Positions 7,655-31,829 of a stretch of DNA of 32,581 bases are shown piece after piece. The translations under genes were made by a program, and so were the position numbers. Where the stretch lies: NCBI GenBank assembly GCA_020060485.1, contig JAGVAB010000157.1:1-32581 (forward strand), in the 5' to 3' direction. The first letter of the stretch is position 1. Each line of letters begins with the position of its first letter. The notes beneath the pieces were generated by a model that searched no databases, had not been told where the DNA came from, and saw nothing but the letters and a program-made list of their open reading frames with translations. The DNA comes from Anaerolineales bacterium. Lineage in GTDB: Bacteria > Chloroflexota > Anaerolineae > Anaerolineales > Anaerolineaceae.

Positions 7655-8833
7655 TTATTGTGATGCAACGCCGATCGAGTTAAGATAATCTTTGTACAGG
7701 TTGATGGTATCAGAGTAGATGACGTCGATTCCGGTGTCAAGGTGATCTTTATTGTCACCAATCAGGTAAGGCTGGAGTAGCGCCATGGTTTCGTCCTTAC
7801 CAAGCACAGTCATTGCGTGCATTATGTAACCACTCAAGTAGCCGTAGAAGTAAACGCGCTGACCGATCATAGCTTGCACGACACCCTCTTCAGCCAGCTT
7901 CTGGGTTTCGGGCTCGGCGTCAAAGGCAACGATTTTTACCTGGCCTTGTTTGCCGGCTGCTTTGACGGCTTGTCCAGCCATCGGACCGTTGTAGGAGTAG
8001 ATGGTGATGAAACCGGCAAGGTCCGGGTATTTCTGCAGGGCGGTCTCAGCGTTGCTCAGAGCCTTTTCCATCTGGACATCATCGTAGAGCGTTTCCAGAT
8101 ACACAATTTTGGATCCTGCCAAGCCATCTTGGATGCCGCGAATGCGTTCCAGAGCGTTGGTGGCGGTGGCATAACCGACCAGACCGACGACTGTGCCTTC
8201 GCCGATAATGTTGATGGCAGCTTCAGCAGCAGCCCGCCCGGCATTGTAGTCGGACATACCGATGTATACAGCCCGTCCACTTTCCGAAGCGTCAGAGTCG
8301 GTTGCGAGGAAGTTAATGTCCTCACCAATTCCCCGTGCGACATAGTCGTTCACGGCTTTGGGATTAATGGCTGAGAATGTGATGGCATTGTACTTGTCGT
8401 TGATGAAGGTATCCAGCATGGAAAGCTGCGCAGAATTGGCGTCTGTCCCAGCGGGAGCATTGAAGAACATCGGGACATTCAGTTCTGAGGAGGCTCTGGA
8501 GAGACCAATTTGAGCCGCTGTCCAGAAGGGGGTCACTGCATTGGTCAATAGAACGTATTTTGCACCAGCAGGTGCTGACTTACCTTCAATAGCCTCTTGC
8601 AGCTTGGTAACAACTTCAAACAGATTGTCAGGCCGGTAGGGGTTGGCGACAGGCTCAACAGGCCCAACAGCTTCTTGAGGTACGGCAGTTTGAATTACCT
8701 CAACGATTTCCTTAACTACCACGGTTTTTTCGACAATGGTTGTCTCAGGGGTTGGGGCAGCTGCGGGGGTGCATGCACCCAGGATCATACTGAGAATGAT
8801 TACCAGGGTGATGGGTAGATGTTTTATCTTCAT
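7655..8833 (-). CDS. Sugar ABC transporter substrate-binding lipoprotein (RbsB-like)
   Basis: This encodes 392 residues from the ATG at 8831-8833, behind AAAGGAG. The N-terminus is a lipoprotein signal with lipobox LGAC (Cys21), followed by a Pro/Thr/Val/Glu-rich linker (to about 65). The mature domain is a periplasmic-binding-protein fold of the RbsB type: TPFWTAAQIGLSRASSELNV, then AINPKAVNDYVARG, VGLVGYATATNALERIRG and VKIVAFDAEPETQKLAEEG. It captures the sugar outside the membrane and delivers it to the permease and ATPase encoded downstream. As first gene of the operon it is probably the most strongly expressed. The ligand is not predictable. Confidence 0.94.
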   Translation of the reverse strand: MKIKHLPITLVIILSMILGACTPAAAPTPETTIVEKTVVVKEIVEVIQTAVPQEAVGPVEPVANPYRPDNLFEVVTKLQEAIEGKSAPAGAKYVLLTNAVTPFWTAAQIGLSRASSELNVPMFFNAPAGTDANSAQLSMLDTFINDKYNAITFSAINPKAVNDYVARGIGEDINFLATDSDASESGRAVYIGMSDYNAGRAAAEAAINIIGEGTVVGLVGYATATNALERIRGIQDGLAGSKIVYLETLYDDVQMEKALSNAETALQKYPDLAGFITIYSYNGPMAGQAVKAAGKQGQVKIVAFDAEPETQKLAEEGVVQAMIGQRVYFYGYLSGYIMHAMTVLGKDETMALLQPYLIGDNKDHLDTGIDVIYSDTINLYKDYLNSIGVASQ

Positions 8834-9160
8834 TATGTATTGCTCCTTTTAGTTTATTATACTGATGGAAAATTCTGCACTTGGATTTGAGCTTCGGGCT
8901 TCACTAACGTCTCTTATCTTTTTCAGGCGAGCCTCCTTTCCATCTCAAGATAACGAAACTTGCTTTTTGAATGCCAACTGAAGGGATTCACCTGCCAGCC
9001 GTTGGCGAAATCAGTGCGATTTCCTGACATTCCTTTAAGCGTAAAGAGAAATCCTGTACTTCTCTTTGCCCAGCATTAAAACTCCGGGAAAAAATAAAAT
9101 AATACTGTGCAAATAATCCATATAAATTACATAGAAAAACGGATGATATGTGAAACAATA

Positions 9161-12742: not shown

Positions 12743-12803
12743 CCAGACATTTAAATGGTCGCCTTGCCCGCGAGGGTAAAGTGTCTGGGGAGCAGAGGGG
12801 CGA
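12743..12803 (+). ncRNA. Candidate structured leader RNA (pseudoknot), riboswitch-like
   Basis: P1 pairs CCAGACAT (12743-12750) with GTGTCTGG (12781-12788). Inside it a second stem, TTGCCC/GGGTAA, is capped by a GCGA tetraloop (12764-12779). The unpaired TCGCC (12759-12763), inside the P1 loop, is complementary to GGCGA (12799-12803), outside P1, which makes an H-type pseudoknot. The pseudoknot's 3' arm touches the 5' arm of the terminator at 12803-12828. That layout, aptamer then terminator then gene, is the one used by transcriptional riboswitches. I cannot match it to a known class. The pairings are read directly; ligand control is inference. Confidence 0.5.
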
Positions 12804-12828
12804 AACCGGCCAGGGGCCGGTTTTTTTT
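12803..12828 (+). terminator. Intrinsic terminator in the leader of the RTX gene
   Basis: AAACCGGCC (12803-12811), loop AGG, GGCCGGTTT (12815-12823), within a run of eight T (12821-12828). It is a 9-bp perfect stem. It lies between the promoter (12611-12639) and the RTX ribosome site (GGAGG, 12841-12845). Only 12 bases separate the T run from GGAGG, too few for another promoter, so the RTX gene needs read-through. Confidence 0.9.
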
Positions 12829-12855
12829 ATTTCCTGTTATGGAGGCTTGGGGACG

Positions 12856-15800
12856 ATGAACACAAACAAAATGCTGCGATTGAAAAAATTATTGCGCTCG
12901 GTGATCCTGGCAATGCTTTTATTGAGCGCCCAGATCCCGCCGCAGGTACTGGCCGCGGTGATCAATGGCACCAATGGTCCCGATATTATAACGGGCACCG
13001 AAGAAGATGACACGATCGATGCCCGCAATGGTGATGATACGGTTCATGCTCTGGGAGGCAATGATACCGTGTTTGGCGGTGGAGGGAATGACATCATCTA
13101 TGGCGGAACCGGCAATGATACCTTATATGGAGACGCGGGTAACGATCAAATCTATGGTGAAGATGGGGATGACACCTTGTACGGCGGCGCTAACAATGAT
13201 CTCCTGAATGGCGGCAATGGCACGGATACTGTTGTCCAGGAGGGGAATACCAACATGACCTTGACCAACACCACATTGACTGGTGATGGCACAGACACGC
13301 TGGCTTCGATCGAAATTGCACGCCTGACCGGCGGCAATGGCCCGAATACCCTGGACGCCTCGGCATTCAGCGGCCAGGTTTTTCTAAATGGCCTGGGAGG
13401 CAATGACACCCTGCGGGGCGGCTCTGGGGACGATTTTCTGGACGGCGGGCTTGGCAACGACAACTTATACGGCGGCGGCGGTACAGACACTGTGGTGCAG
13501 ACGGCCAACGTCGACATGACCTTGACCAATACGCAATTAACCGGCCAGGGTACAGATTCGTTGAACAGCATCGAGCAGGCGATCCTGACCGGTGGAGCTG
13601 GCAACAATACCCTGGATGCCTCGACTTTCAGCGGTCAGGTTTATCTATATGGTTTGGCAGGCAATGACATCCTGCGGGGTGGTTCTGGGGATGATTTCCT
13701 GGACGGTGGAGAAGGTAACGATGCGCTCTATGGCGGCGCTGGTACAGATACCGTGGTGCAGACAGCCAATGCCAACATGACCTTGTCCGATACGCAATTA
13801 ACCGGCCAGGGTACAGATTCGTTGAACAGCATCGAACGGGCGATCCTGACCGGCGGGGCGGGTAATAATACTTTGAATGCCTCGGATTTCAGTGGGTCGG
13901 TTGTGTTGAATGGCATGGACGGCAATGACACCCTGTTGGGCGGCGCTGGAGATGACACCCTGGATGGCGGGGATGGCACGGATACGGTGGTGCAAACGGT
14001 TGATGCTGACATGATCCTCACCAATACATCCCTGACTGGCATGGGTAACGATACCCTGATCAGCATCGAGCAAGCGAATCTGACCGGCGGGGCAAGCGAC
14101 AATCTCCTGAATGCCTCGGCCTTCAGCGGCCCGGTATTCTTGTATGGTATGGGCGGCAACGATACCTTGATGGGTGGCGCCGGGAACGATACCCTGGACG
14201 GAGGGGACGGCACCGATACGGTTGAGCAGACCGCAGATGTCGATATGACCCTGACCAACACTTCTTTGACCGGCATGGGTCTGGACACCCTGATCAGCAT
14301 TGAAATAGCGGCTTTGACCGGCGGGGCGGGCAACAACAAACTGGTTGCCTCGGCTTTTAGCGGGTCTGTCATTTTGACTGGCGGTGCTGGCGATGATATT
14401 TTGATGGGCGGTGCCGGAGATGATACCCTGGATGGCGGCGAAGGCACCGATACGGTGGTACAGACGGTGGATGCAGACATGACCCTGACCGACGATTCCT
14501 TGACCGGCATGGGTCTGGACACCCTGATCAGCATCGAGATTGCAGCCTTGACCGGTGGTGCGAGCAGCAATCTCCTGGATGCCTCGGCCTTCAGCGGTCA
14601 GGCTTTCTTGTATGGTATGGACGGCAATGACACCCTGTTGGGCGGCGCCGGAGATGACACCCTGGATGGCGGCGATGGCATAGATACCGTGGTGCAGACA
14701 GTTGACGCGGACATGACCCTGACCAACACCTCCTTGACTGGCATGGGGTTGGACACCTTGATCAACATTGAGTTGGCGGCTTTGACTGGTGGGGCTGGCA
14801 ACAATTTCATCAACGCTTCCGGTTTCAGCGGCCAGGTCAACATTGACGGCGATGACGGGGATGACACCCTGATGGGCGGCGCCGGGAATGACACCCTGGA
14901 CGGTGGGGACGGCACGGATACGGTGGTGCAGACCGTGAACGCCAACATGACGTTGACGGATGATTCCCTGACCGGCATGGGGCTGGACACCCTGATCAGC
15001 ATCGAGATTGCAGCCTTGACTGGCGGGGTAGGAAACAATATCCTGAATGCCTCAGCCTTCAGCGGCCAGGCTTTCCTGTCTGGCATGGGCGGCGATGATA
15101 CTCTCATGGGTGGCGAAGGGGATGATACCCTGGACGGCGGGGATGGCACGGATACCGTGGTGCAGACCATTGATAATGATATGACCCTCACTGACACGTT
15201 GCTGACCGGCATGGGCAATGACACCCTGATCAGCATCGAGCGGGCGGAGTTGACCGGCGGTGCCAGTGACAATATTCTGGATGCCTCGGCTTTCAGTGGT
15301 CAGGCCTTTCTGTACGGTATGGGCGGTGATGACACCCTGTTGGGCGGCGCCGGAAATGACACCCTGGACGGCGGGGACGGCACCGATACGGTCGAACAAA
15401 CCGCGGATGCCAATATGACCCTGACCAACACTTCCCTGACCGGCATGGGTCTGGACACCCTGATCAGCATTGAAATAGCGGCTTTGACCGGTGGGGCGGG
15501 CAACAATACGCTGAATGCCTCGGCTTTCACTGGGTCAGTTTTCTTATATGGTATGGGCGGCAATGATATCCTCATGGGCGGTTTTGGGAATGACACCCTT
15601 GAGGGCGGGGCTGGCACGGATACGGTGGTGCAGACCGCGAACGCTGATATGACATTGACGGACGATTCCCTGACCGGCATGGGCACTGACAGTCTTGACA
15701 GCATTGAGCGGGCAGAGCTGATTGGTGGGGCTGGCAACAACAAACTGGATGCCTCGGCTTTTAGCGGTCAGGTGGTTCTGTCTGGCATGGGCGGCGATGA

Positions 15801-17547
15801 TACTCTCATGGGCGGTGAAGGGGATGATACCCTGGACGGCGGGGATGGCACGGATACCGTGGTGCAGACGATTGATAATGATATGACACTCACTGACACG
15901 TCGCTGACCGGCATGGGCAATGACACGCTGATCAGCATCGAGATTGCAGCCTTGACCGGTGGTGCCAGTGACAATCTCCTGGATGCCTCGGCTTTCAGCG
16001 GTCAGGCCTTTCTGTACGGTATGGGCGGTGATGACACCCTGATGGGCGGCGCCGGAAATGATACCCTGGATGGCGGGGATGGCGTGGACACAGTCGAGCA
16101 GACCGCGGATGTCGATATGACCCTGACTGATACTTCACTGACCGGCATGGGCCTGGATACCCTGATCAGCATTGAGATGGCGGTTTTGACTGGCGGGGCT
16201 GGTAACAATATCCTGAATGCACTTGGATTCAGCGGCCCGGTCATTTTGAATGGCGGCGCTGGCGATGATACCTTGATCGGTGGCGCTGGGGATGATGAGC
16301 TTGTGGGCGGGGACGGCACAGATACAGTGGTGCAGGAGGTGGATGCCGACATGATCCTGACCGATGATTCTCTGACCGGTATGGGTACTGATTATCTTGA
16401 CAGCATTGAGCGGGCGAGGTTGATCGGTGGTGCAGGCAACAATACCATTGATGCTTCCGGATTCAGCGGTCAGGCCTATCTGGATGGCGGTGACGGGGAT
16501 GACACATTGGTGGGAGGCGATGGGGACGACACGATCATTGGCGGAAATGGCAATGACACCATTACCACCAGTTCCGGACAGGATACGATCACCGGCGGCG
16601 AAGGAGATGACACTTTTCTCTTCAGCGGTGAAACTGGGTCAGTTGCGCCAACCGTAGTCAGCGGTGGGGGTGGTTTCAATCTGTTCAAGTTCCTGACTGG
16701 CGCTTCCGGACGGGTTGAATTAGACACCACCAGTGATGAAGATACTCTGGATTTCAGCGAATATGACGGTGCAGTGGTCATTGATCTGGCTCTGCTGGAT
16801 GTGGAACAAAATGTGGGCTACAATGCCGCAGGTGAAGACCTGTTCATTACTTTGAAGGGCTGGTTCAAGCGTTTGATCGGTTCCGCCTTCGACGACGTGC
16901 TGCTGGGCAATGACCTGGAAAATGAAATCTATGGCGGCCCTGGCGACGATCAGTTGGATGGTGGTGGGGGTCATGATCTGCTGGATGGCGGCCCTGGCAC
17001 GGACACCGATCTGGATAAAGGGGATGGAGACACCTGGGTCAACATGGAATTGCCTCTGGATCCTGTCGATGACGACGATGATGACGACGGCATGGATGAT
17101 GATGGTGGCGGAACCTCGACGGCACAGTTCCTGGTGACCGGCTTGATCCCTGTCACTGGTACCTTGCAGCCATTGATTTGCGACGCAGGCAGCAATGTGG
17201 CTGTGTTGACCACTCTCACCGGTGACAAGGTGTACTTCAAGAACCTTTGTGGTATGCAGGCCATTGTACAGCCAGCTGCATCGCTCCCAGGGTTTTTACC
17301 AGAGGGCAGGCAGATGGTAAGCGCCTTGAGTATTGTGATTGCGGACGGCAATGGGAAAGTTTTGCAGGAATTGCCGCCACTTGCTTCACTCACAGTTGCT
17401 TTCAAACAAAACGGCTTGGTCAATGGCGGTGCACAAACCTTGTTTTGGAATGGGACAGGTTGGTTAACGCTGGACGCTCAGTCCAATGAAGGTTTCATAG
17501 AGGTTAATGCCAATCAGGGCGGCCTGTACGTTCTGACGAATCGTTGA
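12856..17547 (+). CDS. Giant Sec-exported RTX (Ca-binding repeat) surface protein
   Basis: This encodes 1563 residues from the ATG at 12856, with GGAGG ten bases upstream. A frame upstream of it runs through the terminator and is not used. Residues 1-34 are a Sec signal (Lys/Arg-rich start, hydrophobic core, VLA-A cleavage). Residues 35-121 are RTX nonapeptides of the GGxGxD type. Residues 122-1231 are 14 tandem repeats, each pairing a DTVVQT...LTGMGxDTLISIE...NASAFSG strand block with RTX nonapeptides. More RTX repeats follow, then a D-rich linker (PVDDDDDDDGMDDDGGG) and a C-terminal domain of about 150 residues with two Cys. It should bind many Ca2+ ions and fold outside the cell as a long beta-roll rod, an adhesin or matrix protein. 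Classical RTX exporters and a C-terminal type I signal are absent, which suits Sec export in a monoderm. Expression probably depends on the leader terminator. Confidence 0.92.
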   Translation: MNTNKMLRLKKLLRSVILAMLLLSAQIPPQVLAAVINGTNGPDIITGTEEDDTIDARNGDDTVHALGGNDTVFGGGGNDIIYGGTGNDTLYGDAGNDQIYGEDGDDTLYGGANNDLLNGGNGTDTVVQEGNTNMTLTNTTLTGDGTDTLASIEIARLTGGNGPNTLDASAFSGQVFLNGLGGNDTLRGGSGDDFLDGGLGNDNLYGGGGTDTVVQTANVDMTLTNTQLTGQGTDSLNSIEQAILTGGAGNNTLDASTFSGQVYLYGLAGNDILRGGSGDDFLDGGEGNDALYGGAGTDTVVQTANANMTLSDTQLTGQGTDSLNSIERAILTGGAGNNTLNASDFSGSVVLNGMDGNDTLLGGAGDDTLDGGDGTDTVVQTVDADMILTNTSLTGMGNDTLISIEQANLTGGASDNLLNASAFSGPVFLYGMGGNDTLMGGAGNDTLDGGDGTDTVEQTADVDMTLTNTSLTGMGLDTLISIEIAALTGGAGNNKLVASAFSGSVILTGGAGDDILMGGAGDDTLDGGEGTDTVVQTVDADMTLTDDSLTGMGLDTLISIEIAALTGGASSNLLDASAFSGQAFLYGMDGNDTLLGGAGDDTLDGGDGIDTVVQTVDADMTLTNTSLTGMGLDTLINIELAALTGGAGNNFINASGFSGQVNIDGDDGDDTLMGGAGNDTLDGGDGTDTVVQTVNANMTLTDDSLTGMGLDTLISIEIAALTGGVGNNILNASAFSGQAFLSGMGGDDTLMGGEGDDTLDGGDGTDTVVQTIDNDMTLTDTLLTGMGNDTLISIERAELTGGASDNILDASAFSGQAFLYGMGGDDTLLGGAGNDTLDGGDGTDTVEQTADANMTLTNTSLTGMGLDTLISIEIAALTGGAGNNTLNASAFTGSVFLYGMGGNDILMGGFGNDTLEGGAGTDTVVQTANADMTLTDDSLTGMGTDSLDSIERAELIGGAGNNKLDASAFSGQVVLSGMGGDDTLMGGEGDDTLDGGDGTDTVVQTIDNDMTLTDTSLTGMGNDTLISIEIAALTGGASDNLLDASAFSGQAFLYGMGGDDTLMGGAGNDTLDGGDGVDTVEQTADVDMTLTDTSLTGMGLDTLISIEMAVLTGGAGNNILNALGFSGPVILNGGAGDDTLIGGAGDDELVGGDGTDTVVQEVDADMILTDDSLTGMGTDYLDSIERARLIGGAGNNTIDASGFSGQAYLDGGDGDDTLVGGDGDDTIIGGNGNDTITTSSGQDTITGGEGDDTFLFSGETGSVAPTVVSGGGGFNLFKFLTGASGRVELDTTSDEDTLDFSEYDGAVVIDLALLDVEQNVGYNAAGEDLFITLKGWFKRLIGSAFDDVLLGNDLENEIYGGPGDDQLDGGGGHDLLDGGPGTDTDLDKGDGDTWVNMELPLDPVDDDDDDDGMDDDGGGTSTAQFLVTGLIPVTGTLQPLICDAGSNVAVLTTLTGDKVYFKNLCGMQAIVQPAASLPGFLPEGRQMVSALSIVIADGNGKVLQELPPLASLTVAFKQNGLVNGGAQTLFWNGTGWLTLDAQSNEGFIEVNANQGGLYVLTNR
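13219..16548 (+). repeat. Fourteen in-frame tandem repeats within the RTX gene
   Basis: The first two units are 261 bp (87 codons) and the next twelve are 234 bp (78 codons). The two longer units carry one extra RTX nonapeptide. There is higher-order structure: units 8-10 resemble units 11-13 with an offset of exactly 702 bp (three units), for instance at 15079 and 15781. Units 5 and 10 share a long identical block 1170 bp apart (five units; 14281 and 15451). This points to repeated unequal exchange or slippage in multi-unit steps. Confidence 0.9.
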
Positions 17548-23792: not shown

Positions 23793-24182
23793 ATGCGACG
23801 TTCATTGGTGTTTTTAACCCTGATCGTAGGGGTTCTTTTGTTGGCAGCCTGTGGGGGCAGCAAGACGGATCAGGCCCCCAAGGCAGTGGAACTGTATTTG
23901 CAAGCCCTGGTTAAAGAGGATGCAGACCAGCTTGCCACACTTTCCTGCAAGGCATGGGAGACCGATGCCTTGATGGAAGTCGATTCCTTTCAGGGGGTCA
24001 GCGCAGCCCTGGACGGCTTGAGCTGTTCCCAGACGGATACTGAAGGTGATACCGTCTTTGTTTCCTGTACAGGCACGATCAAGGCCACCTACGGCAATGA
24101 ACAGCAGGAGATTCCTCTTGCCGGGCGTACGTACAGGGTGGTGCAGGAAGGCGGTGAGTGGTTGATGTGCGGTTATAAATAG
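23793..24182 (+). CDS. Small lipoprotein, function unknown
   Basis: This encodes 129 residues from an ATG six bases after GGGAGG. The lipoprotein signal ends in lipobox LAAC (Cys20). The mature part has four Cys residues (in LSCKAWE, LSCSQTD, VSCTGTI and LMCGYK) that could form two disulfides. A pattern of AVELYLQALVKEDADQLATL followed by strands suggests the small NTF2/Cystatin-like fold of DUF4878-type lipoproteins, which is a guess. It precedes the acylation cassette by 40 bases and may be co-transcribed with it. Confidence 0.85.
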   Translation: MRRSLVFLTLIVGVLLLAACGGSKTDQAPKAVELYLQALVKEDADQLATLSCKAWETDALMEVDSFQGVSAALDGLSCSQTDTEGDTVFVSCTGTIKATYGNEQQEIPLAGRTYRVVQEGGEWLMCGYK

Positions 24183-24222
24183 GCCGCGGGTGCAATCCCT
24201 GCCTGATATTGAGAGTGTTTTG

Positions 24223-24348
24223 ATGGCATTTTTCCGCCGTTTGTTTTGCAAAGAAAACCTGTGGGCACTGGCCTTGTGTGCCATTTTGATCCTGTTGGTG
24301 ATCTTCACCTCAGACAGCGCCCCGTTGTGGATCTACCAGGGTTTCTAG
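24223..24348 (+). CDS. DltX-like membrane microprotein (41 residues) ending WIYQGF
   Basis: This short gene starts at ATG 24223 and ends TAG 24346-24348. It has a basic N-terminus (MAFFRRLFCKEN), one hydrophobic helix (about 14-28) and a short outside tail ending in WIYQGF. The DltX microprotein of teichoic acid D-alanylation has the same build, one helix and a C-terminal FIYxxF-like motif whose Tyr is reported to carry the acyl group between DltB and DltD. The next gene, one base away, is an MBOAT, followed by an SGNH protein, the same order of roles. The ribosome site (GAGAG) is modest. I infer an acyl carrier role across the membrane; the DltX match rests on motif and context, not on overall similarity. 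Confidence 0.75.
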   Translation: MAFFRRLFCKENLWALALCAILILLVIFTSDSAPLWIYQGF

Positions 24349-24349
24349 C

Positions 24350-25777
24350 ATGGGACTGACCCAGGTACTGATCTTTGCGGCTGCGGTCATCCTGTTGCGC
24401 CTGTTGGCGCGCGGGGTGCAGCGCGGCTGGCTGCTGCTGGTTGCCAGCGCTCTGGCAATCTACTGGTTGCAGCCCGGCATGCCCATTCGCTATCTGGACT
24501 TCTGGCTGCCCACGGCTACCCTGGGTCTGGCTTCCCTGAGCTGGGCGCTGGTCACCCCGCAAGAGGTATGCCGCCAGCGTGAGAACTGGCTGGCTGGCGG
24601 CTTGCTGGTCGGGGTGGTGCTGGCGGTGGCCGTCACCCGTTTCTGGGGGTCGGGCAGCCTTTTCATGGCCACCCGCCCGCCCCAATTTGGGCAGGCAGCA
24701 GCGGGCGCGGCTCTGGTATTTTTGCTGGTGTTGCTGGCAGCCCATTTTTTGCCCCGCAACAGCGCATTTTTGACTGCCGGTACTTTGCTGATCCTGGTTC
24801 TGTTCGTGGTCATCAAGGTGCCTACCCTTTCCCAGTTTGCGGCTGGCGCTCTGCGTACCCTGAGTGGCCAGGATGCCGGCCGGGCGCTGCCCACAGATAT
24901 CCGCTGGTTAGGATTCTCGTATGTAGCTTTTCGTCTGATCCATACCCTGCGTGACTCCCAGACCGGCCGCCTGCCGGCTGTGTCCTTGCGTGATTACCTG
25001 GTCTACGCCCTGTTCTTCCCGGCCTTCACCGCCGGGCCGATCGATCGTCTGCCGCGCTTTCAGAAGGAACTGGAACAGCCCTTTGCCGCACTTGATCTGC
25101 CTGTGGACCTGGGTACTGGCGGCCAGCGGTTTTTTACAGGCTTGTTCAAGAAGTTCGTGGTGGCCGACAGTCTTTCCCTGATCGCCCTGAATGGCGCAAA
25201 CGCCGCCCAGGTGCGGACGGGTGGCTGGGCTTACCTGATGTTGATTGCGTATAGCTTTTTGATCTACTTTGATTTCAGCGGATACACCGATATTGCCATT
25301 GGCCTGGGGCGGGTGCTGGGCTTTCAGCTCCCCGAGAATTTCAACCATCCCTATCTGAAATCCAATCTGACCCTGTTCTGGAACAACTGGCACATGACCC
25401 TCACCCAGTGGTTCCGGGCTTATTTCTTCAATCCGTTCACCCGCAGCCTGCGCCGTTACAAAGACCTGCCGGCCTGGGTGGTGATCCTTGTCACCCAGCT
25501 TGCTACCATGACACTGATTGGCTTGTGGCATGGCGCCACGCTGAATTTCCTCCTGTGGGGGGCCTGGCATGGTCTGGGCTTGTTCGTGCAAAACCGCTGG
25601 TCAGACTGGCTCAAACCGCGCAGCGCCTGGCTGGAGCTTCAACCCTGGCGGAAAAAGCTCTGGCAGGCTTTGGGGGTGGTGTTGACCTTTCATTATGTGG
25701 CTTTGGGCTGGCTGTTCTTTGCCCTGCCGTCGCCCACCCTCTCCTGGCGGGTATTGAACCTGATCTTCGGTGGGTAA
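24350..25777 (+). CDS. MBOAT-family membrane acyltransferase (DltB/AlgI-like)
   Basis: This encodes 475 residues from the ATG one base after the microprotein stop. It has many hydrophobic segments. Family motifs are FFPAFTAGPIDRL (223-235), YFDFSGYTDIAIGLG (306-320), NFNHPYLKSNLTLFWNNWHM (330-349), and the invariant His394 in GLWHGATLNFLLWGAWHG. These match DltB/AlgI/PatA-type transferases that pass an acyl group from the cytoplasm to envelope polymers. Its neighbours are a DltX-like microprotein and a membrane-anchored SGNH protein. No DltA or DltC is present, so the donor may be an acyl-CoA such as acetyl-CoA (inference). The SGNH gene starts six bases on. Confidence 0.92.
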   Translation: MGLTQVLIFAAAVILLRLLARGVQRGWLLLVASALAIYWLQPGMPIRYLDFWLPTATLGLASLSWALVTPQEVCRQRENWLAGGLLVGVVLAVAVTRFWGSGSLFMATRPPQFGQAAAGAALVFLLVLLAAHFLPRNSAFLTAGTLLILVLFVVIKVPTLSQFAAGALRTLSGQDAGRALPTDIRWLGFSYVAFRLIHTLRDSQTGRLPAVSLRDYLVYALFFPAFTAGPIDRLPRFQKELEQPFAALDLPVDLGTGGQRFFTGLFKKFVVADSLSLIALNGANAAQVRTGGWAYLMLIAYSFLIYFDFSGYTDIAIGLGRVLGFQLPENFNHPYLKSNLTLFWNNWHMTLTQWFRAYFFNPFTRSLRRYKDLPAWVVILVTQLATMTLIGLWHGATLNFLLWGAWHGLGLFVQNRWSDWLKPRSAWLELQPWRKKLWQALGVVLTFHYVALGWLFFALPSPTLSWRVLNLIFGG

Positions 25778-25783
25778 GCAAAG

Positions 25784-26929
25784 ATGCTGAACGGCCATTC
25801 CCCCTTCTTTCGCTGGCCTGTGTTGGGCCGTATCCTGCTCAAGACGTTGAGCCTGTTCGTGATCGTCAACCTTCTGCTGGCGGCTGCTGTACCCTTGTCA
25901 GCTTTGGGCCGTGTCTCGGCCTATAACCGCTTGTTCCCTGGCCGGGAGCGGTTTCCTTTTGGCGAAGACCCGGCCGCGGCGTATAATTTCAGCCTGTATA
26001 ATTTTGATGCCATGTTCGCCTCGCATAAATTGACTGCCGGGCTCAAACCAGTGGACGAGTTCCGCATACTGGTGTTGGGTGATTCTTCCACCTGGGGAAC
26101 GCTGTTAACCCCCGATGAGACCCTGGCCGGGCAGCTGGATGCAGCCGGGCTGCGCATGGCAGACGGCCGCCGGCTGGTTTTCTACAACCTGGGGTACCCC
26201 ACCCTGTCCCTTTTCAAAGATCTGATGGTTTTGGAGCGGGGCATGGACTATCAGCCGGATCTGATCCTGTGGCTGGTGACCCTGGATTCCTTGCCGCGTG
26301 AAAAACAGCTCGTCTCGCCCATCGTTGCCAACAATGGCTTTGAAGCCCGTAGTTTGATCGATTCCTACGGTTTGCAGCTCGATCCTCATGATCCTGCCTT
26401 GGTGTCGCCGGACTTCTGGCAGCGCACCCTGATCGGTCAGCGACGGGCATTGGCTGATCTGGCCCGTTTGCAATTATTTGGCGTGATGTGGGCTGCCACC
26501 GGCATTGATCAGGTTTATCCCCGCGATTACCCGCCGGCCCAGCGTGACCTGGAAGCGGATGCTTCTTTTTATGACCGCCAGCCTTCAATCCTTGACCCCG
26601 AATCGCTGGCGCTGGATGTTCTGGCAGCGGGCATACAGGCCGCAGGGAATGTGCCAGTGCTGCTGGTGAATGAACCCATTTTAATCAGTGGCGGCCAGAA
26701 CAGTGATGTGCGTTACAATTTCTATTATCCGCGCTGGGCTTATGACCAGTACCGCCAACTTTTGGCCGGGCAGGCCGCGGCTGCCGGATGGGCTTATCTG
26801 GATGCGTGGGACCTGGTGCCGGAAGCGGAGTTTACCAACAGTGCCATCCATCGTACTCCGGCTGGCGAGGCGCTTCTGGTAGAGGTAGTGAGCGAAAGCC
26901 TTCGAGGATTTCTCGATCTTCAGGAATAA
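25784..26929 (+). CDS. Membrane-anchored SGNH-like protein, DltD/AlgJ-type partner of the MBOAT
   Basis: This encodes 381 residues. A helix (about 15-40) near the N-terminus should anchor it with the main domain outside. Block I is FRILVLGDSSTWG, with Ser101 as the likely nucleophile. A later LILWLVTLDSL segment and the C-terminal NSAIHRTPAG (His356) complete an SGNH/GDSL-like fold. The residue three before that His is Ser, where the usual D-x-x-H has Asp, so the acid may be replaced or lie elsewhere. DltD and AlgJ proteins take the acyl group from the MBOAT side and place it on the polymer. Here the gene starts six bases after the MBOAT. The polymer is unknown. Confidence 0.85.
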   Translation: MLNGHSPFFRWPVLGRILLKTLSLFVIVNLLLAAAVPLSALGRVSAYNRLFPGRERFPFGEDPAAAYNFSLYNFDAMFASHKLTAGLKPVDEFRILVLGDSSTWGTLLTPDETLAGQLDAAGLRMADGRRLVFYNLGYPTLSLFKDLMVLERGMDYQPDLILWLVTLDSLPREKQLVSPIVANNGFEARSLIDSYGLQLDPHDPALVSPDFWQRTLIGQRRALADLARLQLFGVMWAATGIDQVYPRDYPPAQRDLEADASFYDRQPSILDPESLALDVLAAGIQAAGNVPVLLVNEPILISGGQNSDVRYNFYYPRWAYDQYRQLLAGQAAAAGWAYLDAWDLVPEAEFTNSAIHRTPAGEALLVEVVSESLRGFLDLQE

Positions 26930-26998: not shown

Positions 26999-27979
26999 AT
27001 GGTGCCATCAAGACCAAGGATCATTATTCCCGCCGGGATTTTGCTTTTGTATGTCCTCACTGGCTGCACGACAGCCCCCATGACCGCGGTTCCTTCTTCT
27101 GTTCCAAATCCGTCTGCAACTGTGCCTATGCAGACGGATTTGCCGCAGATAGAGGCAGTGCCTGCTTCTCCTACTGTTCAACCTCAGCGTGAAGAGACGC
27201 TTGTTACTGTTCCCACATCACTGCCGACCAGTCTTCCTTTGGCCTGGCAGGATTGGCCGGTGGTGCCAGAGACGATCAGCGACACCACCCGGGAGATTTA
27301 CCTGCGCGGGCTGGCAATGGGTAACAACCCGCAGGCATTTTCCAAAGTGGGAGACTGCGAAATCTACACCACCTGGTTTCTGTATGATTATGACCAGGGA
27401 CCGGCGCATTATGATCTTGGCCCTTATGCCAATTTACAGCCCGTCCTTGAACATTTTGCAGGATCTTATGGGCGCATGAGCCTGGCAACCCAGCCGGGCT
27501 TCACCGCTGCTTCGCTGATGACGCCTTTGTGGGCCAATCGGGATCAGTGCAATAATGATGAATCGCCTCTGGCTTGTGAGCTGCGTATCCACCGCCCGGC
27601 ATTTGCCATTGTGGCCCTGGGTACCAATGATGCCAGTAACCCGCCGCGTTTTGAAGAGAATTTCCGCAAGGTGATCGAAACTTGCATGGAGCATGGCGTG
27701 GTGCCGATTTTGTCGACCAAAGCCGACAACCTGGAAGGTGATGGCTCGATTAACGCCACCATTGTGCGCCTGGCGCAGGAATACGATGTGCCTTTGTGGA
27801 ATTTCTGGGCTGCCTTGCAAGACCTGCCGCGGCAGGGCTTGCAGGAAGACGGCGCCCATCTGACCTGGTACCCCAATGATTTTTCCGACCCGCGCAGCCT
27901 GGAATCGGCTTCCTGGCCGCGGCGCAATTTGTCTGCCTTGCAGGTGCTGGAAGCAGTCTGGCAGGGGGTTGAAGATTAA
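26999..27979 (+). CDS. SGNH/GDSL-like lipoprotein with GDC in block I
   Basis: This encodes 326 residues from the ATG at 26999, with AGAGGA upstream. The lipoprotein signal ends in LTGC (Cys23), then comes a Pro/Ser/Thr-rich linker to about 90. The core has FSKVGDCE (113-121), where GDS would be expected; Cys120 replaces the nucleophile Ser. Block III is VALGTND (205-211) and the C-terminal dyad is DGAH (284-287), so Asp and His are kept. I recall Chloroflexota relatives with the same KVGDC, which suggests a conserved change and not decay. It follows the acylation genes by 69 bases and may act on the same acyl groups, for example as esterase or binding protein. Activity with Cys is unproven. 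Confidence 0.82.
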   Translation: MVPSRPRIIIPAGILLLYVLTGCTTAPMTAVPSSVPNPSATVPMQTDLPQIEAVPASPTVQPQREETLVTVPTSLPTSLPLAWQDWPVVPETISDTTREIYLRGLAMGNNPQAFSKVGDCEIYTTWFLYDYDQGPAHYDLGPYANLQPVLEHFAGSYGRMSLATQPGFTAASLMTPLWANRDQCNNDESPLACELRIHRPAFAIVALGTNDASNPPRFEENFRKVIETCMEHGVVPILSTKADNLEGDGSINATIVRLAQEYDVPLWNFWAALQDLPRQGLQEDGAHLTWYPNDFSDPRSLESASWPRRNLSALQVLEAVWQGVED

Positions 27980-29248: not shown

Positions 29249-31174
29249 TTGGTCCACAACCAGATAACAGAGAACCGGATCGGCAAATACTGCATTCAGG
29301 AAGAATTGGGCCGCGGCGGCATGGGGGTGGTGTACCGCGCCTTTGAGCCAGTTTTGCACCGCGAGGTTGCCCTCAAGCTGCTTCCACCGAATGTGTCCGG
29401 GCAAGAGAAGCTTGTCTCCAGGCTGCGGCATGAGGCGATCAGCACGGCGCGCTTGCGTCATCCCAATATCGCCATGATCTATGATTTTTCACAGGATCAG
29501 GACGACGCTTACCTGGTTATGGAATATGTTGCCGGAGAGTCTTTGCAGCAAATTCTTTGTGAAGGCTCCGTTTCCATTGAAAGAAGCATCCACATTCTCA
29601 AACAGATGGGCGCAGCGCTGGATTATGCCCATTCGATCGGGGTGGTGCATCGCGACGTGAAGCCCAGCAATATCATCATTGGTGCTGAGGATCATGCCAT
29701 GCTGGTGGATTTTGGTCTGGCAGAGATCACTGACAATACCATGATGACCCCGGATGGCGTAGTGCTGGGAACACCACACTATATGTCACCAGAGCAGGCG
29801 GCCGGCCGCCTGGCTACAGATAATAGCGACCAATATGCCCTGGCAGCAGTTGCCTATGAATTGCTGACCGGGGTTCCTCCTTTTCCATATAGTAATACCA
29901 CAGCTGTGGTACATGCCCACATCTATGAGCTTCCTCCCCAGGCAACCGAAAATAATCCCCTGCTGCCGCCCAGGGTTAATTCTGTGCTGGCGAAAGCACT
30001 GAGCAAATCGCCGGAAGATCGTTTTCCAACCGTGATGGAATTTGTTAAAAAACTAGAGGAAGCGGTGAAGCCTTCCCCGCGAGATGAACCATCGGCATGG
30101 AAAAAATGGATCATGCCCTGGGTTGTCAGCATTGGTGTTTTGCTGTTACTAGTCCTGGCCTATCTATTCTTTTCAGGCGCGATGACCAGGTTGTTTAGAG
30201 ACCCTGCCCTGAATACGTTCAATCTTCCCAACAAGTTCGCCTGGAATTACGATCCGGGATTCGTTGGCGGCCCGGAACTGGTGCCTCTGGATAATGTCCT
30301 TATCATTGGCAGTGACGATGGTCAATTGACAGCATTGCAGGCAAACAATGGCTCGGTGTTGTGGAAAACAAATGTCAATGATCTGAAATTTGGCTATCCT
30401 GCTGCCAGCGGCGAACTGGTGTTTGTGGGCGATCACTTTGAAAGGATCGAAGGTCTTTCCTTACGCACGGGCGGAACCGTCTGGCGAACGAAGGTCACCG
30501 GCAGGGTGCAGCTTGCCCCGGTTGTATACCAAAACAGGCTGATCGCGGTAACATCCAAGGGTTATATTTATGTGCTCAATGCCGAGAATGGCAGGGTGAT
30601 TTGGAGCCGTCCTTTTGTGGTTGGCGTTCAAGTTATCGGACTTGCTCCCGGTCATCTTTTGATCGGCTCGGATTCGTCCCTGTATGCATTGGATCTTGAA
30701 AATGGAATGGTGAAGTGGGAATTTGAGACCAGCAGTGCCATTACCACCCAGCCGGCAGCATTTGCTGACCTGGTTTTGATTGGCACTGCCCAGGGACTGA
30801 TCCACGTTATTGATCTTGCCGATGGGGCGGAACAGTGGCGGTATCAGGCAAGCGGCACCGTACGGGCAGCTCCAGCCGTAGACGAGCAGATGATCTATGT
30901 GGCTGACCAGTCGGGAAAGTTGGCTGCCATCAATATGTTGCAACGGAAAGTAGTTTGGGAATTTCAGGCAGGCAGTTCTTTGGAGACCACGCCCCTGATC
31001 TATAACAGATTTCTCATTTTGGGGTCCAGCAATGGTAAAGTCCTGATCCTGGATAAGGATGAAGGAGTTATGTTTGAGGAGATTTCTCTCAATACCAGCA
31101 TAAACACCAACCTTACCCAGGAAAACGGGATGGTATTCATTCGAGCAGACCATATTTATGCATTGATACCATGA
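29249..31174 (+). CDS. Transmembrane Ser/Thr protein kinase with extracellular PQQ-like propeller
   Basis: This encodes 641 residues from a TTG start, seven bases after AAGGA; a nearby ATG is in another frame. The cytoplasmic PknB-type kinase (about 13-272) has Gly loop GRGGMGVVYRA (21-31), Lys43, HRDVKPSN with Asp136, DFG (154-156), and GTPHYMSPEQ (174-183). All key catalytic residues are present. A membrane helix spans about 289-309. The outside part (320-641) is a series of PQQ-type beta-propeller blades such as GQLTALQANNGSVLWKT, GYIYVLNAENGRVIWSRP and GLIHVIDLADGAEQWRYQ. It likely senses an external signal and phosphorylates cytoplasmic targets. The FHA protein encoded 19 bases on is the obvious partner. 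Confidence 0.94.
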   Translation: MVHNQITENRIGKYCIQEELGRGGMGVVYRAFEPVLHREVALKLLPPNVSGQEKLVSRLRHEAISTARLRHPNIAMIYDFSQDQDDAYLVMEYVAGESLQQILCEGSVSIERSIHILKQMGAALDYAHSIGVVHRDVKPSNIIIGAEDHAMLVDFGLAEITDNTMMTPDGVVLGTPHYMSPEQAAGRLATDNSDQYALAAVAYELLTGVPPFPYSNTTAVVHAHIYELPPQATENNPLLPPRVNSVLAKALSKSPEDRFPTVMEFVKKLEEAVKPSPRDEPSAWKKWIMPWVVSIGVLLLLVLAYLFFSGAMTRLFRDPALNTFNLPNKFAWNYDPGFVGGPELVPLDNVLIIGSDDGQLTALQANNGSVLWKTNVNDLKFGYPAASGELVFVGDHFERIEGLSLRTGGTVWRTKVTGRVQLAPVVYQNRLIAVTSKGYIYVLNAENGRVIWSRPFVVGVQVIGLAPGHLLIGSDSSLYALDLENGMVKWEFETSSAITTQPAAFADLVLIGTAQGLIHVIDLADGAEQWRYQASGTVRAAPAVDEQMIYVADQSGKLAAINMLQRKVVWEFQAGSSLETTPLIYNRFLILGSSNGKVLILDKDEGVMFEEISLNTSINTNLTQENGMVFIRADHIYALIP

Positions 31175-31193
31175 GTGTGAAGGGGATGCGATT

Positions 31194-31829
31194 ATGCAGT
31201 ATGCCGTAATTCTTGTCTACCAACCTGATGGGTCAGTTAAAGATATTCAACTGACGTCTGATCAGGTTGTTGTTGGTCGTTCTGATGACTGTGATGTCAT
31301 CATTGAGGGTAAATTGATTTCGCGGCATCATGCCTGCATTCGCAAGCAAAAAAGCGGGTATGTCATTGAAGATCTGCAAAGTCAAAATGGCACTTTGCTC
31401 AATGGAAAATACATCAAGGACATTCAGCACTTGAGTGATGGCGATGTGATTGAACTGGGGGGGATGGGAAAACTGGTTTTTTCGGATAGTGAGTCAACCA
31501 GTTCTTTTTTATCAGCTTCCATTGTGGGTATCTGGCTGGACGTCGAGAAACAGGATATTTGGATTGACGGGATCTGTCTCAATCCCAAATTGTCCCCCGC
31601 CCAATACAAGATGATGGAAGTCTTGTTTGCGAAAAAAGATTTGATCTGCACGCGTGCAGAAATTGTGTCTGCCGTATGGCCCAATGTTACTGAAGGTGTC
31701 TCGGAAGAAGCAATTGATGCCCTGATCAAACGTGTCAGGGCGCGTCTGGCAGAGGTCAATCAGGGGGATCAGTATCTCATTACGCTGCGCAGCCGCGGAT
31801 TGATGCTCAAAAGCCCGGAAACAAGGTAG
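31194..31829 (+). CDS. FHA domain fused to OmpR-type winged-helix DNA-binding domain
   Basis: This encodes 211 residues from an ATG about nine bases after AAGGGG. The N-terminal FHA domain (about 5-96) has all hallmark phosphothreonine-binding residues: VVVGRSDDCDV (Arg29), LISRHHACI (Ser43, His46) and NGT (65-67). The C-terminal winged helix (about 128-208) has LSPAQYKMMEVLFAKKD, then EEAIDALIKRVRARLAE (recognition helix region) and TLRSRGLML (wing). There is no receiver domain. It should bind DNA and read phosphothreonine, most simply on the autophosphorylated kinase encoded 19 bases upstream or on itself, linking outside sensing to transcription. Its targets might include the downstream sugar-binding gene, which is inference. 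Confidence 0.93.
   Translation: MQYAVILVYQPDGSVKDIQLTSDQVVVGRSDDCDVIIEGKLISRHHACIRKQKSGYVIEDLQSQNGTLLNGKYIKDIQHLSDGDVIELGGMGKLVFSDSESTSSFLSASIVGIWLDVEKQDIWIDGICLNPKLSPAQYKMMEVLFAKKDLICTRAEIVSAVWPNVTEGVSEEAIDALIKRVRARLAEVNQGDQYLITLRSRGLMLKSPETR

Follow-up and report, generated by a model that had tools for sequence, protein, structure and literature searches.

The 32,581-nucleotide contig JAGVAB010000157.1 of an Anaerolineales bacterium (assembly GCA_020060485.1), analysed here over its whole length and called the window below, carries a compact gene cluster in which a microprotein of 41 amino acids precedes an MBOAT protein and a membrane-anchored SGNH protein. As proposed in an initial annotation of this DNA, the three products can be assigned roles equivalent to those of DltX, DltB and DltD, with a conserved tyrosine motif on the separate microprotein. 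The cluster contains the following genes:

23793..24182, + strand: LIPO1, a small lipoprotein of 129 amino acids, which often opens the cluster
24223..24348, + strand: DltX-like microprotein of 41 amino acids, recognized from its sequence, with no match in Pfam (E <= 1) or in NCBIfam
24350..25777 (ATG 24350, stop at 25777), + strand: DltB-like MBOAT of 475 amino acids, assigned by Pfam, NCBIfam, alignment and tree
25784..26929, + strand: SGNH1, a membrane-anchored SGNH protein of 381 amino acids, assigned by alignment and fold comparison
26999..27979, + strand: SGNH2, an SGNH-type lipoprotein of 326 amino acids from ATG 26999, often present in the cluster

The microprotein (MAFFRRLFCKENLWALALCAILILLVIFTSDSAPLWIYQGF) runs from ATG 24223 to the TAG at 24346-24348, and an alternative in-frame GTG start at 24190 would extend it to 52 amino acids, a form for which Pfam gave no match at E <= 10. 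It presents a basic N-terminus, a single hydrophobic segment and a C-terminal motif, WIYQGF, resembling an acyl-shuttle motif, in which Tyr38 is encoded at 24334-24336. The gap to the MBOAT gene is a single base (24349), and six bases lie between the latter and SGNH1, exactly as first annotated, and the predicted catalytic residues, His394 of the MBOAT (25529-25531) and Ser101 of SGNH1 (26084-26086), are also found where they had been placed. The alignment of 30 microproteins revealed four common features: the basic start, an ENL segment, a single hydrophobic stretch and the tail. Of the ten invariant or near-invariant positions, six belong to the C-terminal hexapeptide, and Glu11 and Asn12, located before the helix, and Ala15 are conserved as well. 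A search of the PDB with the microprotein profile returned nothing but a chance match (E 5.5). The suggestion that so short a gene would be missed by gene callers does not hold generally, since 4860 of 7994 scored database candidates match the profile (E <= 0.01); among the 120 database matches listed, the named ones are all "hypothetical protein" except one, and none carries a Pfam domain.

The conservation of the microprotein was followed by scanning one-per-species genome contigs with an alignment of 25 MBOAT sequences and keeping the best 80 of 581 relatives; the loci L001-L034 are the Chloroflexota members of the clade of the window MBOAT. Three of these 34 loci could not be judged (L003 because of N-masking, L022 and L033 because they are truncated), and 29 of the 31 testable ones present upstream of the MBOAT a frame of 33 to 46 residues ending in [WL]IYxxF and a stop, in agreement with the conserved short frame that had been anticipated beside related MBOATs. 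After the addition of regions from further genomes, 98 loci with a microprotein call were available, the window included. This set leaves out L035, L134 (whose MBOAT ends like that of L002) and L119-L130, which are second reads of counted contigs or loci of the same genomes with an acyl carrier protein (ACP) and a ligase. The Tyr and the final Phe are kept in all 97 readable tails (L003 being masked), with the reservation that tails of this kind served to build the profile, which is thereby biased toward them. The sequence is WIYQGF in 91 cases, WIYQNF in two, and WIYQSF, WIYQAF, WMYQGF and LIYRGF in one each; the grounds named at the outset for abandoning the idea, a lack of conservation of the frame beside related MBOATs or a free variation of its end, thus do not apply. 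The distance to a following MBOAT gene is at most 300 bases in 82 of the 98 loci, and at most 9 kb in 92.

Two trivial explanations of the short frame were rejected. A chance frame is ruled out by its conservation, by its co-occurrence with the MBOAT and by the rarity of such tails: only 104 of the 14280 short open reading frames (30-80 amino acids) in the examined loci end in [FWLIVYM][ILVMF]YxxF, and 103 of them, counting second reads of a locus, belong to the microprotein family. The remaining one (window 8736-8852) ends in IMYCSF, does not lie beside an MBOAT and is probably due to chance. Nor is the microprotein a mis-split N-terminus of the MBOAT, because the intergenic gaps vary in length and several are not multiples of three.

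At the level of whole genomes, the microprotein and the MBOAT were sought in 396 genomes, of unstated completeness, from the class of Leptolinea tardivitalis (genome G005, with locus L015), the Anaerolineae, using thresholds of E <= 1e-3 for the microprotein, 1e-60 for the MBOAT and 1e-140 for the ligase described below. Each of the two was found in 96 genomes and both together in 94, i.e., about a quarter. The genomes with the microprotein only are G037, in which a stop lies inside the match, and G064, with a partial match (E 7e-4); in those with the MBOAT only (G111 and G150) its score is about 209 bits, comparable to the fused-motif protein of L035 (211). In a sample of 400 genomes from the phylum, the microprotein was detected in 34 (E <= 1e-4), all of them already met in the class sample. 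The ligase is present in 99 of the 396 genomes, namely 89 of the 94 that contain both the microprotein and the MBOAT, and 10 of the 302 others.

The window MBOAT matches PF03062 with 66.5 bits (cut-off 27), the named database sequences closest to it come from Anaerolineaceae and other Chloroflexi, and His394 is invariant in 25 aligned members. Its sole significant NCBIfam match is DltB (TIGR04091), with 218.8 bits, below the equivalog cut-off of 375; two relatives scored 212 and 220, and eight fused-motif MBOATs 163-193. The protein has a DltB-like MBOAT fold, and the members of its clade do not possess the C-terminal extension which bears the motif in other MBOATs: a fused Tyr hexapeptide occurs in none of the 25 aligned members, and the window protein ends in LNLIFGG. 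In a tree with 32 clade sequences (L038, L041 and L075 were left out of it and of the tail-length count), the clade groups with the carrier-fed DltB and not with the fused-motif forms. A scan of viral contigs with the MBOAT found no relative. AlphaFold was applied to an artificial read-through of microprotein and MBOAT, in which the MBOAT part is good, most block means being above 90, and residues 21-40, which include the motif and lie beside the artificial linker, have means of 58 and 48. Some genomes also encode MBOATs with a fused FIYxQF motif at a distance of a few kb from their split-motif system (L131 3522-7370, L003 3814-5205 and L141 6223-7626), and these fused and split forms side by side constitute a natural in-cell contrast.

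SGNH1 aligns to DltD across most of its length and shows an SGNH fold of DltD size with the Ser and the His. Ser101, Asn135, Asp340 and His356 are present in all 61 aligned rows (60 rows and the window, as also for SGNH2 and LIPO1). Pfam Lipase_GDSL_2 is matched below its cut-off (20.9 vs 32.9), with no other Pfam match at E <= 1; NCBIfam gave nothing at E <= 10. No DltD family model was thus matched in either database, and a PDB search with the sequence gave no match either. The 50 fold matches listed include none of PatB, AlgX and AlgJ, an absence that excludes nothing.

The donor side of the pathway was recognized in the relatives of the window. Weak matches to DltC (29.4 bits and below) pointed to an ACP encoded immediately after SGNH2, then to a ligase of 560 residues, and the usual order of the cluster is LIPO1 - microprotein - MBOAT - SGNH1 - SGNH2 - ACP - ligase. 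Both genes are present in 50 of the 98 loci, and in 35 of the 65 having at least 7 kb upstream and at least 7.5 kb downstream; in a few loci they are reversed in orientation or ahead of the cassette, and in L. tardivitalis they lie with an SGNH2 on another contig (L124). The 32.6 kb of the window contain neither. The initial description of a minimal cassette needs correction for the family, whose cluster often includes both.

For four members of the ligase family, the two best curated NCBIfam rows are fatty acyl-AMP and long-chain acyl ligases. The closest solved relatives (top rows at 221 bits) are named by their depositors as fatty acyl-AMP ligases (FAALs): 3pbk, FadD32, FadD23 and FadD28 (3t5a); we take 7r7e, 3kxw and 4r0m, deposited under other names among the best solved relatives, to be of the same type. 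FadD13 scores 105 bits. The ligase also carries conserved SWLPLYHDMG and PNFAYN stretches, which are presumably FAAL-typical, and matches amino-acid-adenylation models weakly (about 109-122 bits for a cut-off of 317). By family it is FAAL-like, and fatty acyl adenylation is its predicted activity.

The Dlt components themselves were sought with family models in the genomes of 16 of the 34 Chloroflexota loci and in 14 control genomes. DltA, DltC and DltX (PF12459) were above cut-off in none of the 16 and, for each model, in two of the 14 controls, with B. subtilis and L. lactis among the positives; D-alanylation by Dlt proper was rejected on this result for the 16 genomes. Sub-cut-off DltX matches were found in 7 of the 16 genomes and, in G005, where the positions were compared, not at the place of the microprotein. 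The strict DltX motif FxYxxF is absent, the first tail residue being Trp in 96 and Leu in one of the 97 tails; the DltX-like traits are the single hydrophobic segment and the Tyr and final Phe. The microprotein is thus predicted, by analogy, to work like DltX without the strict motif. The initial statement that DltA and DltC are lacking is right insofar as neither exceeds its cut-off, but a carrier and an adenylating enzyme do exist, from other families than those of Dlt, since the common cluster order includes the ACP and the ligase.

Several known systems help to situate these results. The Dlt system (DltX-A-B-C-D), which D-alanylates teichoic acids in Gram-positives, resembles the one described here by its microprotein with a C-terminal Tyr motif, its DltB-fold MBOAT, its DltD and, as regards many of the Anaerolineae relatives, by the carrier protein and the adenylating ligase encoded close by. 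It differs by DltA, replaced here by a FAAL-like ligase, by an ACP below the DltC cut-off, by a microprotein unmatched by the DltX model, by an MBOAT below the DltB cut-off (219 vs 375), by the motif (FxYxxF vs WxYxxF) and by the phylum: the system works like Dlt yet fails the DltX, DltA, DltB-equivalog and DltC tests. O-acetylation systems of the PatA/PatB and AlgI type also combine an MBOAT, an SGNH protein and a C-terminal Tyr hexapeptide, but theirs is fused on a C-terminal extension of the MBOAT and they use no carrier, whereas here the motif and the MBOAT are encoded separately, and many loci add an ACP and a ligase. FAAL and ACP pairs serve lipopeptide, polyketide and mycolate pathways. 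They too join a FAAL-like ligase to a stand-alone ACP, but in Anaerolineae their partners are a DltB-like MBOAT, a shuttle-type microprotein and DltD-like SGNH proteins, not synthases. The shuttle motif was reportedly first described in 2023. According to a 2025 paper (PMC12148441), the tyrosine motif has been described for many systems, and the non-Dlt MBOAT/SGNH pathways present it fused, with neither carrier protein nor DltX-like microprotein. The novelty suspected in the initial annotation thus lies, not in the motif, but in its location on a separate microprotein accompanied by a carrier protein outside Dlt, and the system departs, in another phylum, from the rule given in that paper that microprotein and carrier are Dlt-only.

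We propose, with a probability of roughly 60%, that the cassette supplies the membrane-bound half of an acylation pathway in Anaerolineae, a DltX/B/D-like tyrosine relay fed by the ligase and the ACP. From the gene order, the conservation, the co-occurrence and the family and fold assignments observed here we infer the chemical steps, the topology, the acyl group and the acceptor, as well as the presence of an ACP and a ligase elsewhere in the genome of the window. The FAAL-like ligase would adenylate a carboxylic acid (a fatty acid being the likeliest) and load it on the dedicated cytoplasmic ACP, from which the MBOAT, using His394, would move it onto Tyr38 of the microprotein. With the C-terminus of the latter facing outward, the acyl-tyrosine could swing to Ser101 of SGNH1, which would hand the acyl group to a hydroxyl acceptor outside the cytoplasm, either a glycan or a lipid, SGNH2 acting perhaps as an accessory transferase or an editing esterase. 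Each part fits, by analogy, the chemistry of PatA and Dlt given in PMC12148441 (thioester, then Tyr, then Ser, then acceptor). Because of the ligase family, the group moved to the cell surface is probably a fatty acid rather than D-alanine, and may instead be a short, hydroxy, amino or other acid. More tentative, and a little short of even odds, is the idea that the relay carries a long fatty acyl group from acyl-ACP across the cytoplasmic membrane as a tyrosine ester and thereby lipidates an extracytoplasmic glycan or lipid; if true, a Dlt-type machine would perform surface lipidation in about a quarter (94/396) of the sampled genomes of the class. A relay paired with a FAAL-like ligase offers a test case for long acyl chains on an acyl-tyrosine shuttle and the cassette a handle on the Anaerolineae envelope. 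In the open-licence literature, no paper was found combining a FAAL-type ligase with an MBOAT or DltB.

Several observations weigh against this proposal. The microprotein is missing from its usual place beside the MBOAT in L012 and L025, and the genome of L025 (G011) has no microprotein anywhere (that of L012, G004, has one at a different locus); six of the 98 microprotein loci (L169, L173, L177, L181, L182 and L185) have no MBOAT within 9 kb, although it lies on another contig in at least two of their genomes (G247 and G171). The ACP and the ligase are not both nearby in 30 of the 65 loci with long flanks, including the window, the ligase occurs without the microprotein-MBOAT pair in ten genomes and the pair without the ligase in five, and the relatedness of the genomes inflates the Fisher values. 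The ligase remains below the curated NCBIfam cut-offs (336-370 vs 572 and 600 bits for the top two models and four members), and 6ulx, an "amino acid adenylation domain-containing protein", outranks FadD13 with 167.5 bits. Sub-cut-off matches to DltA were found in 16 of the 16 genomes and to DltC in 10, DltB is represented in the tree by one sequence, and the motif in the read-through model is mostly below a pLDDT (predicted local distance difference test) of 50, too low to show docking.

Part of these observations would suit an O-acetylation of the PatA/AlgI kind, in which the MBOAT would acetylate the microprotein Tyr from acetyl-CoA, SGNH1 would acetylate peptidoglycan or an exopolysaccharide, and the ligase and ACP would be merely co-inherited. 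Both genes are not in the fetched locus in 48 of the 98 cases, window included, and PMC12148441 describes acyl-CoA as the donor for the known non-Dlt MBOAT/SGNH pairs. We nevertheless consider this scenario unlikely in view of the frequency of the ligase in genomes with the pair (89/94 vs 10/302), of its presence with the ACP in half of the loci, and of the grouping of the MBOAT with the carrier-fed DltB, a single sequence, away from the fused forms. Single-helix subunits are common in membrane enzymes, and the microprotein could serve the MBOAT as a structural or regulatory subunit, its Tyr receiving no acyl group, a role for which the conserved Glu11, Asn12 and Ala15 hint at binding; it is improbable, as conservation is concentrated in the hexapeptide, which other MBOAT groups carry in cis and which, in PatA, is the demonstrated acetyl-Tyr site according to the same paper. 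True aminoacylation, with D-Ala or another amino acid loaded by the ligase on the ACP and transferred onto a teichoic-acid-like polymer, would explain a set of roles identical to that of Dlt and the weak DltC and amino-acid-adenylation matches, but appears very improbable given a FAAL-like ligase with its two conserved stretches and the DltA and DltC results (0/16 genomes vs 2/14 controls each).

The two accessory proteins of the cluster show features of their own. At its nucleophile position SGNH2 has a Cys in 35 and a Ser in 26 of the 61 aligned members, an apparent Ser/Cys exchange inside the family, the window protein having Cys (GDC). In LIPO1, the lipobox Cys20 and four further Cys are invariant, and these four suggest disulfides.

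The neighbours were considered as clues to the acceptor, and 14 clusters recur in at least five loci; judged by eye and without family search, none stood out as a common glycan pathway. One cluster (5 loci) resembles, in our estimation, an LmbE-type deacetylase, and others, in up to 16 loci (e.g., L184 and L172), presumably correspond to release factor 2 and FtsY. In the window, the cassette is followed by a sugar-binding protein and a kinase; at 29249-31829 lie a Ser/Thr kinase domain with a PQQ-type beta-propeller, then a protein with FHA and transcriptional-regulator C-terminal domains. Ahead of the cassette (1401-23605) are found genes of sugar or polyol metabolism, namely an oxidoreductase, a ribose/galactose isomerase-like protein, two transketolase halves, an ABC ATPase, a sugar-binding protein, LacI and IclR regulators, an MFS transporter and a thiamine pyrophosphate (TPP) enzyme. 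Finally, the window contains at 12781-17547 an open reading frame of 1588 residues with many RTX-type calcium-binding repeats (PF00353, 404 bits).
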